DNA of 48,726 bases from an uncultured Chlorobiaceae bacterium (GTDB taxonomy: Bacteria; Bacteroidota; Chlorobiia; Chlorobiales; Chlorobiaceae). This document shows, in pieces, positions 27,848 to 42,452 of this stretch (its first letter is position 1; each line of letters starts with the position of its first letter). Under the pieces are notes generated by a model. That model was not told the DNA's origin, ran no database searches, and saw only the letters and a program-made list of their open reading frames with translations. The stretch covers positions 1-48,726 of the forward strand of contig CAIMPI010000002.1 in NCBI GenBank assembly GCA_903843305.1, written 5' to 3'. Position numbers and translations under genes: made by a program.

Positions 27848-28795
27848 CTACACAAAAAAAGCAGACTCAGCACCATGACGAAAGCCCCTGAGAAATTCAG
27901 AAGCCTCCATTGGTTTGCGCCCTTCAAGCTGAAACGACAAGAGCTCAAGCCAACCATCGATACCTCTGGCATAGAGTCTGGTACCCTCGACAAAAGCTGT
28001 TCCCGAAGAAACTGATGGCATTTCAGTTGCAAAAGAAGTGGGAAGAGAAGCACTGAATATCTTCATGGTTTTTCCCTGGAACGTTGTCCATGCTGCTGGC
28101 TTCAAGGCAAGACCCCTGATAAAATCATGAATAACCGCAACTGGCTGCTCCCACTTGATTCGTGTATTATCCCGAGAGAGCTTCGGAGCTTTTGAGGCCA
28201 GCGCGTCATTCTGTCCAGATACGTTGACACTACCGGAGGCTATCTGATGCAGTGTATTGACGACAACAATGGCGCCAATTTCCGACAGACGACGGGTCAG
28301 ATTAGTCGCATTTTCATCGGGGGCTATCGGTGTTTTTTCCTGAAGAATGATATTGCCGGTATCAACACGCTGCTGCAGAAAAAATGTTGTGACACCGGTT
28401 TCCTTTTCTCCCTTGATGATGGACCAATTGATGGGAGCCGCACCCCGATAGGCCGGGAGAAGAGAGGCATGAAGATTGAATGCGCCGAGAGCGGCCTGTT
28501 CATAGACCGCGGGAGGCAGAATACGAAAAGCAGCAATAACAATAACATCAGGCCGTTGCACAGCAACGGTAGTTGCAAAATCCAGATCCATTACATCATC
28601 AACCTCATACACCGAAAGCCCGAGAGCAAGAGCGGCCTGCTTTACCGCAGATGGCTCGGCATCAGCGTGTTTACTCTTGCGAGGCTTATCCTTTCCCGTC
28701 ACAACAAGCACAATCTCAAAGAGAGTTTTTTCAGCAGCAATTGCCTGTAATGAAGGAACTGCAAATGCCGGAGTTCCCATAAAAATAATCCGCAT
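27848..28795 (-). CDS. fmt: methionyl-tRNA formyltransferase
   Basis: Formylates Met-tRNA for initiation. The start used is ATG 28795 ([16 protein letters not shown]), where family members begin; an in-frame TTG at 28804 would overlap the def stop by 4 nt but is a weaker start. The formyl-transfer domain has [19 protein letters not shown] (His, Asn of the active region), [18 protein letters not shown] and the C-terminal domain [16 protein letters not shown]. Length 315 residues. Together with def and lepA it makes a protein-initiation/processing cluster. Confidence 0.95.
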
Positions 28796-28800
28796 TACAC

Positions 28801-29367
28801 TCAAGATGTTTTAGATGTAGGGACAACCTCACGCACAACAACCGGATAGGCTGCATTGACAACACCAGAAGCCAGAGCAGACAACTCCTTCTGGATCTTG
28901 CGTCTATCACGCTTCTCCAATCTATCAACAAAAAGCGTCCCGTCGAGATGATCAATCTCATGCTGTATTACCCTGGCAACCATACCAGAAAACTCACCGA
29001 TACGCTCCTCAAAATGCTCATCGCGGTATTTCAACATAATAAACGAAGGACGCACCACATCACCCTGAACCCCTGGAACACTCAAGCATCCCTCCTCCAT
29101 TTCACTGGAGCCCCTGACCGCAAGAATATGAGGATTAATAACCACCATTGGCTTCTCATCCTCATACTTACTCACACAAGAAACATCAAGCACAAGCAAC
29201 CGCAGAGAATGCCCTACCTGAGGAGCCGCCAAACCAATGCCCGAGGCATTGCGCATCGACTCAAACATCGACTCTACAAGCTCTACAATCTCAGCATCAA
29301 CACCCTTCAACGGCCTCGCCTTCCGTCGAAGTACATCATCACTATAAATATTAATCGGTAATATCAT
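28801..29367 (-). CDS. def: peptide deformylase
   Basis: Removes the formyl group from nascent proteins. The three metal-site motifs are present: [18 protein letters not shown] (Cys ligand) and [11 protein letters not shown] (two His ligands). Length 188 residues. The ATG at 29367 overlaps the stop of the transposase gene upstream by 4 nt, so the original promoter may lie across that element or have been lost. Confidence 0.97.
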
Positions 29368-30377
29368 TTCTCAGGGGACGTAGGTGATTTTATGTATTTA
29401 CTGTTCAGACCTGCCAGACGTCGAAATATCTGATTAACCGCAGACGTTGAAATCCCCAGTTGACGGGCCGTTTCGGCATACGTCAACCCAAAATCTATAA
29501 CGGACTTCACCGCAAACTCTTTTCTCAGTTCCGTGCACTCACGTCTTTTGCTGCCGGACTTTAACAACTGCAACGAAACGCCCACTACCTCGCATCGTTT
29601 CCGGAGTTCGTCTGCTACTGTTTGCAACAACCCTTCTGCAGGAACAAGTCCCTTGACTGAATCTTCGACTTGTTCAAGAATTTCCCGAACAAAATCTCCG
29701 CTTCCAAGAATTCGTTCATCACTGAAATGTTTCTCACCCCGCTGCCGCAATGACTTAACTTCAGACCATCCACCAACGGAACGAAGCAAGCCTCCACCGG
29801 TCAATTCCGGCTGTTGACCCATTCTGCCTGCTTCTTCAACAAAAAGACGATAGGCATCTCTGGACTTACCCTCTTTTTCTCCAAAAAACTTCAACACCGC
29901 GTCAACTTCCTGCCAATCATGTTTGATCTGTTTCATGATTACCGCGTGACCGCTCCAGCGGTAACGACCAAGCTCCTCAACTGAACCAGCAAGTCCAGCC
30001 CTCAAGGGATTAAGGTGAATATAACTTACCAGCTTTAAAAAATAAGGTTCTTCCTCACAGATTATCGATTTGTAACGGTTTTGAAAAAGATGTCCGCGCC
30101 TTTTGTGTCGCCGATTATACCCAGTAGCATATCCTGTCAATAACTTGCGCATAAATGATGAGAGACCGTCATCACCACTTTTCAGGAGAATATGGGCGTG
30201 ATTGGTCATCAGCGACCAGGCAAATATCTTTGTGTCGGTTGTTTTCGACAACGTCCCCATGCGCAAAACAAAGTAATCGCGATCATCATCATCCATCACA
30301 ATTGCACATCCATCAATCCCCCTTACCATAACATGGTGCAGAGTTCCCGGAGCATCAAGTCTTGGTCCTCGCGGCAT
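29364..30377 (-). CDS. REP-associated tyrosine transposase (Y1_Tnp/RAYT)
   Basis: A 337-residue HUH-type transposase. The N-terminal Y1_Tnp domain has LHHVMVRG, the HUH-type motif MTNHAHILL near residue 60, and the catalytic Tyr region SYIHLNPLRAG near 120. The longer C-terminal part ends in a helix-turn-helix (TYAETARQLGISTSAVNQIFRRL), typical of the larger RAYT proteins with a DnaA-like or sigma-like C-terminal domain. The start ATG is 30377. Two 15-bp inverted repeats lie near the ends (29374-29388, 30447-30461); the left one is inside the last codons. The stop overlaps def. Confidence 0.9.
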   Translation of the reverse strand: MPRGPRLDAPGTLHHVMVRGIDGCAIVMDDDDRDYFVLRMGTLSKTTDTKIFAWSLMTNHAHILLKSGDDGLSSFMRKLLTGYATGYNRRHKRRGHLFQNRYKSIICEEEPYFLKLVSYIHLNPLRAGLAGSVEELGRYRWSGHAVIMKQIKHDWQEVDAVLKFFGEKEGKSRDAYRLFVEEAGRMGQQPELTGGGLLRSVGGWSEVKSLRQRGEKHFSDERILGSGDFVREILEQVEDSVKGLVPAEGLLQTVADELRKRCEVVGVSLQLLKSGSKRRECTELRKEFAVKSVIDFGLTYAETARQLGISTSAVNQIFRRLAGLNSKYIKSPTSPEK

Positions 30378-30461
30378 GCTACCCTCGCCTGTTTGTTTAC
30401 TATGAATTACGTAAAATGTAGCAAATTATTCAAACAAGTGCTAAATATCACCTACGTCCCC
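29374..30461 (-). mobile_element. RAYT element bounded by 15-bp inverted repeats
   Basis: GGGGACGTAGGTGAT at 29374-29388 is exactly inverted as ATCACCTACGTCCCC at 30447-30461. The two repeats enclose the transposase gene and give a 1,088-bp unit. Y1/HUH elements usually lack long terminal inverted repeats but do have short hairpin-type ends; these repeats resemble REP-like ends seen near RAYT genes. The left copy lies in the coding sequence for SPTSP at the protein's end. Confidence 0.7.
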
Positions 30462-30478
30462 CTCTTTTTATTGAAAGC

Positions 30479-30504
30479 AAAAACCCCGAGATTACGGGGT
30501 TTTT
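30479..30504 (-). terminator. rho-independent terminator after the tRNA-Ser genes
   Basis: AAAAACCCCG and CGGGGTTTTT form a 10-bp stem with a 6-nt loop at 30479-30504. On the minus strand the T residues form the terminator tail. It ends the leftward tRNA transcript 5 nt after the GCT tRNA and before the RAYT element; in the other direction the T residues also give a weak tail. Confidence 0.75.
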
Positions 30505-30508
30505 GGGG

Positions 30509-30598
30509 CGGAGAGGGAGGGATTCGAACCCTCGATAGCCCTATAAGAACTATGACGGTTTAGCAAACCGTTGCCTTCAGCCGCTCGGCCACCTCTCC
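30509..30598 (-). tRNA. tRNA-Ser (anticodon GCT)
   Basis: On the minus strand the sequence begins GGAGAGGTGGCCGAG and folds as a class II tRNA: acceptor GGAGAGG with CCTCTCC, anticodon stem ACGGT with ACCGT around loop TTGCTAA (anticodon GCT, reading AGC/AGU), a long variable arm, and T arm GAGGG-TTCGAAT-CCCTC. The long variable arm and anticodon fit Ser. The 3' CCA is not encoded. It lies in tandem with a second tRNA-Ser. Confidence 0.95.
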
Positions 30599-30606
30599 TG
30601 ATGGTT

Positions 30607-30692
30607 TGGCGGAGGATGAGGGACTCGAACCCCCATGGGCGTGAACCCGGCAGTTTTCAAGACTGCTGCCTTACCAATTAGGCAAATCCTCC
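30607..30692 (-). tRNA. tRNA-Ser (anticodon TGA)
   Basis: On the minus strand it begins GGAGGATTTGCCTAATTGG and has acceptor GGAGGAT with ATCCTCC, anticodon stem GCAGT with ACTGC around loop CTTGAAA (anticodon TGA, reading UCA and others), a long variable arm, and T arm GGGGG-TTCGAGT-CCCTC. The 3' CCA is encoded (30607-30609). The two serine tRNAs lie 8 nt apart and are probably co-transcribed. Confidence 0.95.
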
Positions 30693-30789: not shown

Positions 30790-32544
30790 TTACGGATAAA
30801 TGAGTGAGCGTAATAGTGTTTCTCCAACAGGTTCATTTTTCAGTAATGGGACGACTGCATATCGATGAGCATATCGATGAGCCACATCTTCAATCTCATT
30901 TAATTCATTCTTTGCACGTTCCATCAAAAGTGAAGATTGCGACACTGCAGCAGCCGCACTGTTGTTGATAATCCAGCCCCAAGGTTCGATGCCCGCACGT
31001 CGCAAATCTTCCTGCAAGTTGACTGCTTCAAGGACAGGTGTTGTTTCGGCTAAGGTGACAATCAACACCTTTGTCTGTTTCTGGTCTTGTAACTGCATCA
31101 TGGGGGTGACATCGTGCAAACCAGTGCTTCCTGCTTGACGACTGACTTCGCGGTGATATGCTCCGGTGGCATCGAGCAGCAACAGTGTATGTCCAGTTGG
31201 CGCAGTATCTATAACAACAAATTTTTTATCAGCCTCACGGATGATCCGTGAGAATGCCTGAAATACAGCGATTTCTTCTGTGCATGGCGAACGCAGGTCT
31301 TCTTCAAGCAGGGCTAAACCTTCAGCATCAAGCTGAGCACCTTTGGTGTCCAAAACCTGCACCCGGTAGCGTTCGGTTTCAACTTCAGGGTCAATCCGGC
31401 TCACCATAAGGTTTTCAACCGTACCAGTCAGTGTTTTGGTGAGATGGGCCGCAGGGTCAGTAGTCGTCAGGTGTGTCGGGAGGCCTCGATGTGCCAGTTC
31501 AACGGCAACTGCAGCAGCCAATGTGGTTTTACCAACCCCACCTTTACCCATAAACATGATAAGCCCGTGACTATCGGCAGCAATTTCGTCAACCAGTGCT
31601 GAGAGTTTTGGAGCGTTGATCCTGACAGACTTATGACATTCGACTATTACCTGCTGAACGTTTCCCGTGAGCAATTGGCGCAAGGCCTCAAGACCGACAA
31701 GATTGAAAGGCTTGAGCTGTAGATGATCGCAAGGCAATGTTTTAAGAATAGCAGGCATTGCTGAGAGAGCTTCTTGCTCACGGGAAAAGATAGCCTTTGC
31801 GAGAGCGTCCTGCTGGGTTTCGCTTTGGGGGAACAACCCGTTTATGACAAGAAAGTGTTGTGATATCCCAATGGCTGCGAGCTCTTGATAAGTGCGTGCG
31901 ACTTCCTGTAACGTTGCATTTTGTGCTCGGGAGACCAAAATAAGGCGAGTACGCGAAGGATCGGCCAAGGCTTCAACAGCAGCCTTATACTGTGCACGTT
32001 GTTTTACAAGTCCGGCCAACGGTCCGAGGCACGAGGCATCTCCTGTTCCCTCCTCAATAAAGCTGCTCCAGGCACCGGGAAGCTGCAGCAGCCTGATGGT
32101 ATGACCGGTTGGTGCAGTATCGAAGATGATATGGTCGAAGTGGGCATGCAATGCTGTGTCAGTCAGTAGCGAGGTGAACTCGTCAAAAGCGGCGATTTCA
32201 GTTGTACAGGCTCCGGAAAGCTGTTCCTCAATGCTGTTGACCACGGTTTCAGGGAGTAAGCCCCTTACCGGCCCCACGATGCGTTCACGGTAAACCTGAG
32301 CGGCTGCCTGGGGGTCAATTTCCAGGGCAAAAAGGCGTTCCACTGCAGTAATAGCAGTAATCTGATTGCCTATAGTGACACCAAAAACTTGACCAACGTT
32401 GGACGCCGGATCGGTGCTGACGAGTAACACCCGCTGTCCGTCATCAGCAAGCTGAATGGTCGCTGCGCATGCTATGGACGTTTTCCCGACGCCCCCTTTT
32501 CCGGTGAAGAAAAGGAAGCGAGGTGGTTGTTCAAGAAATAACAT
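30790..32544 (-). CDS. arsA: arsenite-stimulated efflux ATPase ArsA
   Basis: Soluble ATPase that drives arsenite export. It is a tandem two-domain protein: each half has a Walker A motif (GKGGVGKTS and GKGGVGKTT) and a DTAPTGHT switch. The metal-site cysteines appear in SGACTTEIAAFDEF, DASCLGPLAGL and RSPCTEEIAVFQAF, matching the three essential Cys of known ArsA. The start ATG 32544 (MLFLEQPPRFLFFTGKGG) fits the family; an in-frame TTG lies at 32580 inside arsD. The usual partner is ArsB, but here the pump is ACR3-type, so ArsA may couple to it. Confidence 0.93.
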   Translation of the reverse strand: MLFLEQPPRFLFFTGKGGVGKTSIACAATIQLADDGQRVLLVSTDPASNVGQVFGVTIGNQITAITAVERLFALEIDPQAAAQVYRERIVGPVRGLLPETVVNSIEEQLSGACTTEIAAFDEFTSLLTDTALHAHFDHIIFDTAPTGHTIRLLQLPGAWSSFIEEGTGDASCLGPLAGLVKQRAQYKAAVEALADPSRTRLILVSRAQNATLQEVARTYQELAAIGISQHFLVINGLFPQSETQQDALAKAIFSREQEALSAMPAILKTLPCDHLQLKPFNLVGLEALRQLLTGNVQQVIVECHKSVRINAPKLSALVDEIAADSHGLIMFMGKGGVGKTTLAAAVAVELAHRGLPTHLTTTDPAAHLTKTLTGTVENLMVSRIDPEVETERYRVQVLDTKGAQLDAEGLALLEEDLRSPCTEEIAVFQAFSRIIREADKKFVVIDTAPTGHTLLLLDATGAYHREVSRQAGSTGLHDVTPMMQLQDQKQTKVLIVTLAETTPVLEAVNLQEDLRRAGIEPWGWIINNSAAAAVSQSSLLMERAKNELNEIEDVAHRYAHRYAVVPLLKNEPVGETLLRSLIYP

Positions 32545-32570
32545 AGTCTCGGGTGATTGTATGATTGTGG

Positions 32571-32933
32571 TCAACAGCAATTACTGCCTGAACAACAACT
32601 TTTTGCGGGTTTAGCTGTAGTGTCAGGCGGCGTTATATCGACCCAGCGAGCCAACTCTGCCCGGCTTGGATATGCTCCTGCCAACATTATATCGCCATCA
32701 AGGAGAATAAGCGGAAGTCCATCCTGGCCTGAGAGCTCAAGGAATGCTTTAACAATCTGATTTTCCGCAAAGGCCATTGGCTGTTGTGCCAGATTGAATC
32801 GTTCAATCAGAGCTCCCTGTTGTTTTGCCCAGTCTACATCTGCCGAGAAACTGATCAATGCCTGATCTGCATCGACACCACATACCCCTGTACTGCAACA
32901 AAGGGCCGGATCAAATACCTGAATTTTTTTCAT
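32571..32933 (-). CDS. arsD: arsenic metallochaperone ArsD
   Basis: Carries As(III) from thiols to ArsA. The N-terminal site CCSTGVC (Cys12, Cys13, Cys18 in family numbering) is present in FDPALCCSTGVCG, and the protein ends with a vicinal pair SCCSGSNCC as in classical ArsD. Length is 120 residues. It lies directly before arsA, the standard order. Confidence 0.94.
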   Translation of the reverse strand: MKKIQVFDPALCCSTGVCGVDADQALISFSADVDWAKQQGALIERFNLAQQPMAFAENQIVKAFLELSGQDGLPLILLDGDIMLAGAYPSRAELARWVDITPPDTTAKPAKSCCSGSNCC

Positions 32934-32945
32934 GTTAAACTTTAA

Positions 32946-33410
32946 TTAACTGTTAAATGAATTAGACGCTGACATGTCGTTAAGCCATGAGGTTATTTTA
33001 TCCCGAAGTTCATCGCGCACCTCACGGAAAACCGCAAGTTGTTCTTCCGTTGTTCCGGATATCTCCGCCGGATCATTGACTGGCCAATAATAACGTTTTT
33101 CATTTGGAAGCCCAGGCCAGACCCTTGGACAGGTTGACTGTGCATTGTTGCACACAACAATCAGGTAATGAATCCATGATTTTCCGAGATAGACATTTAG
33201 AGATTTCGGTTGTTGAGAGCTGATGTCGATACCAATTTCCTCCATAACTTGTATCGCTAATGGATGAACTTCATTGCCCGGTTCCATTCCTGCGCTCAAT
33301 GCTTCGAAGCCCTCACCAGCCAGATGACGAAGCAATCCTTCCGCCATCTGGCTCCGACAAGAGTTACCCGTACAGAGAAAAAGTACATTTTGTTTTTTTG
33401 GCATAATCAA
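32946..33410 (-). CDS. arsC: thioredoxin-type arsenate reductase (LMW-PTP family), second copy
   Basis: Reduces arsenate to arsenite. The low-molecular-weight phosphatase-like P-loop is [13 protein letters not shown] near residue 13, and the redox relay cysteines are in VVCNNAQSTCP, with NDPAE downstream. This is the layout of the thioredoxin-coupled ArsC group. The start may be ATG 33410 or the in-frame ATG 33404. It lies between the pump gene and arsD; another related arsC lies at 34490. Confidence 0.92.
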   Translation of the reverse strand: MIMPKKQNVLFLCTGNSCRSQMAEGLLRHLAGEGFEALSAGMEPGNEVHPLAIQVMEEIGIDISSQQPKSLNVYLGKSWIHYLIVVCNNAQSTCPRVWPGLPNEKRYYWPVNDPAEISGTTEEQLAVFREVRDELRDKITSWLNDMSASNSFNS

Positions 33411-33429
33411 TTGGATTAATGGTTTGATA

Positions 33430-34485
33430 TCAGGCTTCTATTTTTTCACCAAAATATTTTGCCTTGAACCAGAGCGCGACATTGACCAGTGCAATCAGGG
33501 CGGGAACCTCAACGAGCGGGCCGATCACTGCAGCAAAAGCCTCTCCTGAGTTGATGCCGAAAACAGCTATCGCAACAGCAATGGCAAGCTCAAAGTTGTT
33601 GCTTGCTGCTGTAAATGAGAGTGTTGCTGTTTTGGAGTAGTCGGCACCAACCTTGCGGCCCATGTAGAACGAAAGAAAAAACATGATGACAAAATAAAGC
33701 AGGAGAGGTATGGCAATTCGCACAACATCAAGCGGTATTTTTACGATATAGCCTCCTTTCAGTGAAAACATCACCACAATAGTGAAGAGCAGCGCAATAA
33801 GTGTAAGCGGGCTGATGCGGGGAATGAATTCACCTTCGTACCACTCCTTGCCTTTCAAGCGAAGCATGAAAAAACGGGTCAGGAAGCCTGCAATAAAGGG
33901 AATACCAAGATAGATAAACACTGAAGTGGCAATATCCGCTATGGAGATGTCAACTACGAATGAGGTCAGACCAATCCACTTTGGCAGTAGCGTCAGAAAG
34001 ATCCATGCATAAAGGGGGAAAAAAAGTACCTGAAAGACCGAGTTGAAGGCGACAAGCCCGGCGGCATACTCAGTATCTCCTTTGGCAAGTTCGTTCCAGA
34101 CAATAACCATGGCAATGCAGCGGGCAAGACCAATCAGAATAAGACCCGCCATGTAGTGAGGCATATCAGAGAGAAGAAGCACGGCAAGGACAAACATCAG
34201 AATCGGCCCGATCACCCAGTTCTGCACCAGTGACAATGCAAGTACTTTTGTGTTCCGAAACACCTCGCCGAGCTCCTCATACTTTACCTTTGCCAGCGGT
34301 GGATACATCATGACGATAAGCCCTGCAGCTATAAGAATGTTGGTTGTGCCAGACTGAAAAAGGTTCCAGAACCCCGGAACACTCGGGAATAGATAGCCCG
34401 ACAGCACACCAGCCGCCATGGCAAGAAAGATCCAGAGTGTCAGGTAGCGATCAAGAAATGAGAGCTGTTTTACTGCTATACTCAT
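33430..34485 (-). CDS. acr3: arsenite efflux permease, ACR3 type
   Basis: Membrane pump for arsenite of the ACR3 (BASS superfamily) group with ten helices. The conserved Cys and Glu of ACR3 are in [21 protein letters not shown] and [14 protein letters not shown]. Length 351 residues is normal. It sits between the two arsC genes, 19-20 nt from the second and 4 nt from the first, so all are co-transcribed. Confidence 0.95.
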
Positions 34486-41906: not shown

Positions 41907-42452
41907 ATGCAACGCAGACAATTTATATTCACTGTTTTCAGTGCTTCAATGGTATTGGCAACTCGTCCTTTTGCAGTATTTGCAAGCAACGACAACAAGG
42001 TAACCATTGTGCAATTTTCTGATGACGGTAAAGAGCTAAGGCATGTAATAGTCTCCAAAGTGCATAAAGATGCTGAATGGCGAAAAACACTCTCTCCATT
42101 AGCATATAGGGTAACACGCGAAAAAGGAACCGAGAGCGCTTTCTCTGTGCCTGGTTACGACAGACATGAGCTTGGGCTGTATCGTTGTGTTTGTTGTGAC
42201 AATGCTCTCTTTGATGCCCGTACCAAATACGACTCGCATACCGGCTGGCCAAGTTTCTGGAAACCGATTGCCCCGGAAAATGTCCATGAAGTAACGGATA
42301 ACGAGTTCGGCATGACTCGTACCGAAGTGCAATGCTCCTTATGCAATGCGCATCTTGGTCATGTGTTTGACGATGGCCCTCAACCTACAGGATTGCGGTA
42401 TTGCATGAACACCGTGGCGATGCGATTCGTGAGAACGCCAAAAAAGAGCTGA
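41907..42452 (+). CDS. msrB: exported methionine-R-sulfoxide reductase B
   Basis: Reduces Met-R-sulfoxide. It has a signal peptide with twin arginines (MQRRQFIFTVFSASMVLATRPFAVFAS), a zinc site of two CxxC pairs (CVCC and CSLC) and the catalytic Cys in GLRYCMN near residue 170. The core starts at ...EWRKTLSPLAYRVTREKGTE. The first residues resemble a Tat signal but lack the full consensus, so Sec export is also possible. The stop is followed 5 nt later by the dipZ start, then by msrA. Confidence 0.93.
   Translation: MQRRQFIFTVFSASMVLATRPFAVFASNDNKVTIVQFSDDGKELRHVIVSKVHKDAEWRKTLSPLAYRVTREKGTESAFSVPGYDRHELGLYRCVCCDNALFDARTKYDSHTGWPSFWKPIAPENVHEVTDNEFGMTRTEVQCSLCNAHLGHVFDDGPQPTGLRYCMNTVAMRFVRTPKKS

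Follow-up and report, generated by a model that had tools for sequence, protein, structure and literature searches.

The window analysed here, a stretch of 48,726 nt from an uncultured Chlorobiaceae bacterium (genome G000), carries a transposase gene whose stop codon lies on the start codon of def, the peptide deformylase gene. We consider it quite probable that the element is an old TIRYT/TIRtron which landed once in front of def, has been kept there by vertical inheritance and selection, and has had its reading frame merged into the def start.

The transposase gene and its terminal repeats

On the minus strand of the window, the 337-aa transposase gene (29364–30377) is followed by def (28801–29367, 188 aa; Pep_deformylase, 2.1e-49), and def in turn by the next gene of the run, fmt for methionyl-tRNA formyltransferase (27848–28804), the ORF of which is listed from a TTG with an in-frame ATG a few codons further in. 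The transposase TGA and the def ATG share four nucleotides (ATGA, 29364–29367, minus strand), and the overlap is identical in two relatives, G003 and G074. An exact 15-mer is present at 29374–29388 (+) and 30447–30461 (−), and the resulting inverted repeats enclose 1,088 bp and reach 18 nt when one mismatch is allowed. The left, gene-upstream repeat reads GGGGACGTAGGTGAT; the right repeat, nearest def, falls within the final codons of the transposase, the protein tail being ...KSPTSPEK followed by the stop. Both the exact repeats bounding the gene and the 4-nt overlap beyond the def-side repeat had been given in a preliminary description of this DNA, and both are confirmed. When scanned with up to three mismatches, the 15-mer gave three matches (vs. 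0.59 expected), the third of which has three mismatches. Upstream of the element, an 11-bp perfect hairpin (CAAAAACCCCG/CGGGGTTTTTG; 30478–30505, minus strand) lies just after tRNA-Ser(gct) (30507–30598) and tRNA-Ser(tga) (30607–30692), both on the minus strand; it is read as the tRNA terminator, and it is absent from the output of the terminator scan. Beyond the tRNAs, the window contains at 30790–34485 a probable arsenic gene cluster, in which an ArsA-like ATPase stands beside ORFs that by eye resemble ArsD, a low-molecular-weight phosphatase/ArsC and an ACR3-type transporter.

The protein matches Pfam Y1_Tnp (E = 4e-8) and, at 60.4 bits, which is below the cutoff of 80, NCBIfam REP_Tyr_transpos. 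Its HUH motif is NHAH (H60, H62), read as NHVH in some genus copies, and its tyrosine motif is the catalytic-type YIHLNP (Y119); H60, H62 and Y119 are invariant in an alignment of 28 sequences. An AlphaFold2 model (mean pLDDT 78.6) is closest in fold to 4er8, the structure of a RAYT in complex with a REP hairpin (Foldseek, E = 9.1e-6), a link that comes from the fold comparison only, as a search of solved structures by sequence gave no match at E ≤ 0.01. A putative C-terminal HTH domain, spanning helices 279–324 in the model, is matched by HTH_23 at E = 2.3e-4, with 21.3 bits against a gathering score of 24.6, and the tail after it, residues 325–337, is predicted with pLDDT < 50. The family assignment holds at the fold and domain level.

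The transposase is present as a single copy in the window's genome (2.59 Mb, 55 contigs searched), and its repeat is found more widely. The exact repeat is also solitary at three further places in that genome, two more sites differ from it at two positions (reading GGGGACGTTGTTGAT), and the reversed, read-backwards pattern has no match there. Counted with the element's own ends, GGGGACGTWGKTGAT occurs seven times in G000, 13 times in G003 and eight times in G074; it is present in 14 of the 28 genomes searched, the backward pattern being found once across all of them. At least two solitary sites are, by their flanks, apparently common to G000 and G003 (L009 with L248/L256; L013 with L254), so the spread of solitary repeats is old. 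These copies suggest that the protein may have acted on its own repeats as RAYTs act on REPs. In G003 and G074, right-end repeats also occur as inverted, MITE-like pairs, 337 bp across (L246:729–1065) and 182 bp across (L259:705–886), respectively.

The preliminary description had called the gene a RAYT and had proposed a search for repeat copies as REP elements. Copies do exist elsewhere in the genome. The repeats do not fold, however: at 0 to −1.1 kcal/mol, the four ends of two elements (the window's and that of G003) are no more stable than shuffled sequences, and the letters GTAG are present with no stable stem after them. The reading of the repeats as REPs was rejected because the ends form no hairpin. 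The RAYT-like fold and domains stand (4er8, Y1_Tnp), and with non-REP repeats the element is better described as a TIRYT/TIRtron.

Descent, decay and selection at def

The distribution of the element was followed through 65 genomes of the genus, in which the named relatives are Chlorobium/Chlorobiaceae MAGs; 62 of the 65 have a def match and 61 contributed a def locus (G045, G061 and G076, without a def match, and G087 lie outside this set). In a tree of def, fmt and lepA, the window's genome falls within a clade of 26 species (support 95). Three of the 61 loci, G000, G003 and G074, have an intact transposase that reads into def; all three belong to this clade and represent only two independent lines. 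When up to 700 nt upstream of def were searched with a profile, some loci being shorter (down to 301 nt in G010), remnants were detected at E < 1e-3 in ten more clade genomes (G018, G013, G081, G044, G014, G012, G042, G009, G021 and G085) and weak ones in another three (G024, 0.022; G002, 0.071; G088, 0.071), the best of 61 shuffled controls scoring 0.26. The same search found no remnant before def in the remaining ten clade genomes, and neither element nor remnant in any of the 35 genomes outside the clade.

The tRNA-Ser pair is common to most of the clade, and tRNA-Ser genes lie upstream of def, within the fetched stretch, in 20 of 26 clade loci vs. none of the 35 others. The preliminary description had proposed looking for an empty site upstream of def in related genomes; an exact empty site was not found, the 35 non-clade genomes having no tRNA-Ser neighbours in the fetched stretch. 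In six clade members forming one branch, 89–153 nt separate tRNA-Ser(gct) from def and the element is undetectable, which is read on the tree as secondary loss. The intact def copies group as (G000,(G003,G074)) with support 99, compatible with the def+fmt+lepA tree. The simplest account is that an old HUH transposase element flanked by TIRs inserted once between def and the tRNA-Ser pair, in or before the ancestor of the 26 species, and then decayed repeatedly; independent insertions at the same place are the less likely alternative.

Several other features were noted by eye in these regions. Just before def in G088 (L097), a 27-nt remnant of the transposase HTH is still in the reading frame of the transposase and terminates at the same ATGA, for which chance alone would give one in three. 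A response-regulator-like reading frame lies between tRNA-Ser and def in G012 (L082) and G021 (L094). Finally, a GCAACTT-like word stands some 50–100 nt before def in many outgroup genomes, e.g., G065 (L096) and G075 (L098); none was noticed in the tRNA-Ser-bearing clade.

Where the element is intact, both its protein and its ends are shown by sequence comparison to be held by selection. The dN/dS (NG86) of the transposase is 0.122 for G000/G003, 0.124 for G000/G074 and 0.076 for G003/G074, and that of def in the same pairs is 0.165, 0.132 and 0.098, with dS comparable to the transposase. A low dN/dS alone does not tell which function is selected; its value is also near 0.1 in the catalytic domain, indicating that the protein itself, beyond a mere open frame, is under selection. 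Four-fold sites of G000 and G003 have an identity of 0.50–0.59, and both 15-bp repeats are identical between these genomes (G074 has one change in the right repeat). At the left end, 24 of the outer 26 nt match between G000 and G003, vs. 31 of 58 in the remaining leader (Fisher p = 0.0004). The element is thus ancient, vertically inherited and selected, and host lines can lose it.

The overlap with def and a second site at msrB

All three intact def copies read through the right repeat and reach their stop codon at the def ATG. The spacing after the right repeat is 6 nt in G000, compared with 9 nt in both G003 and G074, and ATGA is kept despite this 3-nt difference. For comparison, the matches listed include 36 full-length, stop-free, near-complete copies linked to neither def nor msrB (35 from outside the clade plus G085), the proteins of which have 320–333 aa. 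None of these 36 listed copies overlaps a downstream ORF of at least 80 aa, four of them being only partly tested, with < 150 nt after the stop. In 14 of the 36, a right repeat within two mismatches of the left one was found with its outer end 14–98 nt past the stop, the other 22 being uncounted in this respect. Since no other full-length copy among the matches listed shows such an overlap, the read-through of the right repeat into def is an unusual, derived feature of the def copies.

This arrangement makes translation of def coupled to that of the transposase plausible. The reading frame has lost its usual stop before the right repeat and terminates at the def ATG instead. Most likely, the transposase gene, def and fmt are transcribed as a unit, and ribosomes that finish the transposase could restart on def. 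A missing Shine–Dalgarno sequence was considered as a sign of coupling and dropped after a baseline count: def has no Shine–Dalgarno match of at least 4 nt in 23 of 26 clade members, with or without the element, and in 23 of 35 others, so that its absence at this locus says nothing for coupling. The preliminary description had made def expression depend on either coupling or a promoter inside the transposase gene. Coupling stands as a possibility; however, a promoter scan gave no sigma-70-like promoter on the minus strand of this region of the window, and def lacks an intact element in front of it in 23 of 26 clade members, losses which show that on an evolutionary time scale the element is dispensable for def.

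A sister element, whole or as remnants, occurs at msrB (loci L046, L047, L181 and L217–L229). Long-form msrB orthologues were found in 13 clade genomes, G021 among them. In G009, G020 and G080, full-length sister copies are fused in frame to msrB, giving ORFs of 500–506 aa with a dN/dS of 0.106–0.119 across the transposase part. In G024, msrB is joined in frame to an HTH piece, and in G012 an element remnant precedes the gene. In G085, G050, G010 and G042, about ten transposase codons are left at the apparent msrB start. They open with GTG or ATG followed by AAT CAG, which corresponds to VNQ in the HTH, and run on into a lipoprotein-like signal sequence; these leftover codons would be the msrB start in use. 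The msrB site of the window's genome has the left repeat only, as in part do those of G081 and G044. A second MsrB-like stretch lies within the window itself at 42066–42431, with 46% identity to the MsrB of L011.

The msrB copies bear on a rather doubtful alternative, namely that coupling to a host gene itself preserved the element, the survivors being those copies whose frames merged with an important neighbour such that frame breaks harm the host. Among the matches listed, six of seven full-length open copies in the clade are joined to a host gene (three overlap def and three are fused to msrB, G085 being the exception), vs. none of 35 outside it, and the frame at def was kept across the 3-nt length difference. 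However, the six host-joined copies represent two insertion events only, the low dN/dS of the catalytic domain speaks for selection on the protein, and in most lines the def-side element has disappeared or been disrupted, so that coupling gave it no protection at that site.

It is also improbable that the def promoter arose from part of the transposase gene and that the remnants owe their survival to this. The remnants of two subclades do share one internal stretch (profile positions about 390–445) containing TTGA and TATATT-like words, but its identity is near that of def+fmt four-fold sites, at 0.59 vs. 0.56 in one subclade (lepA 0.64; 8 of 11 members compared) and 0.79 vs. 0.72 in the other (lepA 0.75; 5 of 5 members). 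Moreover, the shared stretch is absent in G088 and ten others, and by a rough estimate the overlap of the remnants could be chance. With the stretch near the four-fold level and no promoter found on the minus strand in this region of the window, a captured def promoter is not supported.

The preliminary description had judged the element domesticated or recently inserted. A recent arrival of a mobile element that came by chance to stand in front of def, for which the exact repeats, the intact gene and the multicopy relatives elsewhere in the genus could be cited, is hardly credible given the same junction in G003 and G074, the high synonymous divergence, the remnants running through the 26-species clade and the single copy in the window's genome. 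The first half of that judgement fares better: domestication-like retention, i.e., single copy, vertical descent, purifying selection and kept repeats, is partly supported, in G000, G003 and G074 only, the element being lost in other species. The same description had held that an identical arrangement in relatives with no sign of mobility, or the absence of the repeats elsewhere, would count against it; relatives do share the arrangement, which bears on its age, but the repeats are not absent elsewhere.

Known relatives and significance

Di Nocera et al. (2013, PMC3733652) describe RAYT relatives with long terminal inverted repeats as TIRYTs and their units as TIRtrons; they record as 3′ov those repeats that extend over the gene's 3′ end, and the repeat motif GGGGWSAS as common to some, not all, TIRYTs. 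The best name for the window's element is TIRYT/TIRtron, a kind already known to be related to RAYTs, as judged from the features that source describes: an HUH/Y1 RAYT-like transposase, long non-palindromic TIRs starting GGGG, and solitary repeat copies. The window's repeat, GGGGAC, fits the motif in its first six letters, whereas the next GT does not fit AS. Unlike the TIRYTs described there, the window's gene runs through its repeat into an essential gene, and its descent and decay are traced across species.

In the classification of Quentin et al. (2018, PMC6006769), 20 of 26 described TIRYTs fall in TnpA-Y1 subclass 2.1, which is given C-terminal HTH domains (Bac_DnaA_C, HTH_23 or HTH_28), HuH motifs NHVH or NH[YF]H and no REPs, and which a table in that source equates with group 1 of Bertels. 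The window's element resembles this subclass in its putative HTH_23-like C-terminal domain, its Y[IV]HLNP motif, its TIRs and its lack of REP hairpins. However, its protein has 337 aa vs. the median of 238 given there, the element is multicopy in some genus genomes, and NHAH, with Ala at the hydrophobic position, is not among the motifs listed in that source; because of this differing HUH letter, the placement is one of resemblance only.

RAYTs are described as single-copy, vertically inherited, domesticated transposases (PMC8049555). With the RAYT/REPtron (TnpA-REP, 4er8), the window's element shares the catalytic-domain fold, flanking inverted elements, single copy and domestication-like retention, but its ends lack hairpins, GT[AG]G-tagged palindromic REPs do not stand beside the gene, and the three carriers have 7 to 13 repeat copies per genome vs. 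a large REP population. It differs from IS200/IS605 in having YIHLNP rather than Y---Q and no subterminal hairpins at its ends.

The element is thus of a known kind in an unusual, informative position. Literature searches on TIRYTs, on Chlorobium RAYT/IS200, on def or deformylase with transposase, on domestication and on transposase/signal-peptide fusions gave, among the papers listed, none describing the def or msrB arrangements. The long persistence of single-copy RAYT-like transposases that do not spread still calls for an explanation, and this genus displays one element at one place, beside an essential gene, in every stage: intact and selected, eroded, and gone. At a second place, msrB, a host gene seems to have adopted the end of a transposase as its own. 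We tentatively propose, as an idea short of probable, that TIRYTs of this green sulfur lineage may owe their persistence to a merger of their 3′ ends with host genes, through the stop/start overlap at def and the in-frame fusion at msrB, with the last ten or so codons outliving the rest as the start codon and signal-peptide n-region of msrB; housekeeping genes would then have drawn new translation starts more than once from the end of a selfish gene. Together, the def and msrB cases make the idea of coupling directly testable.
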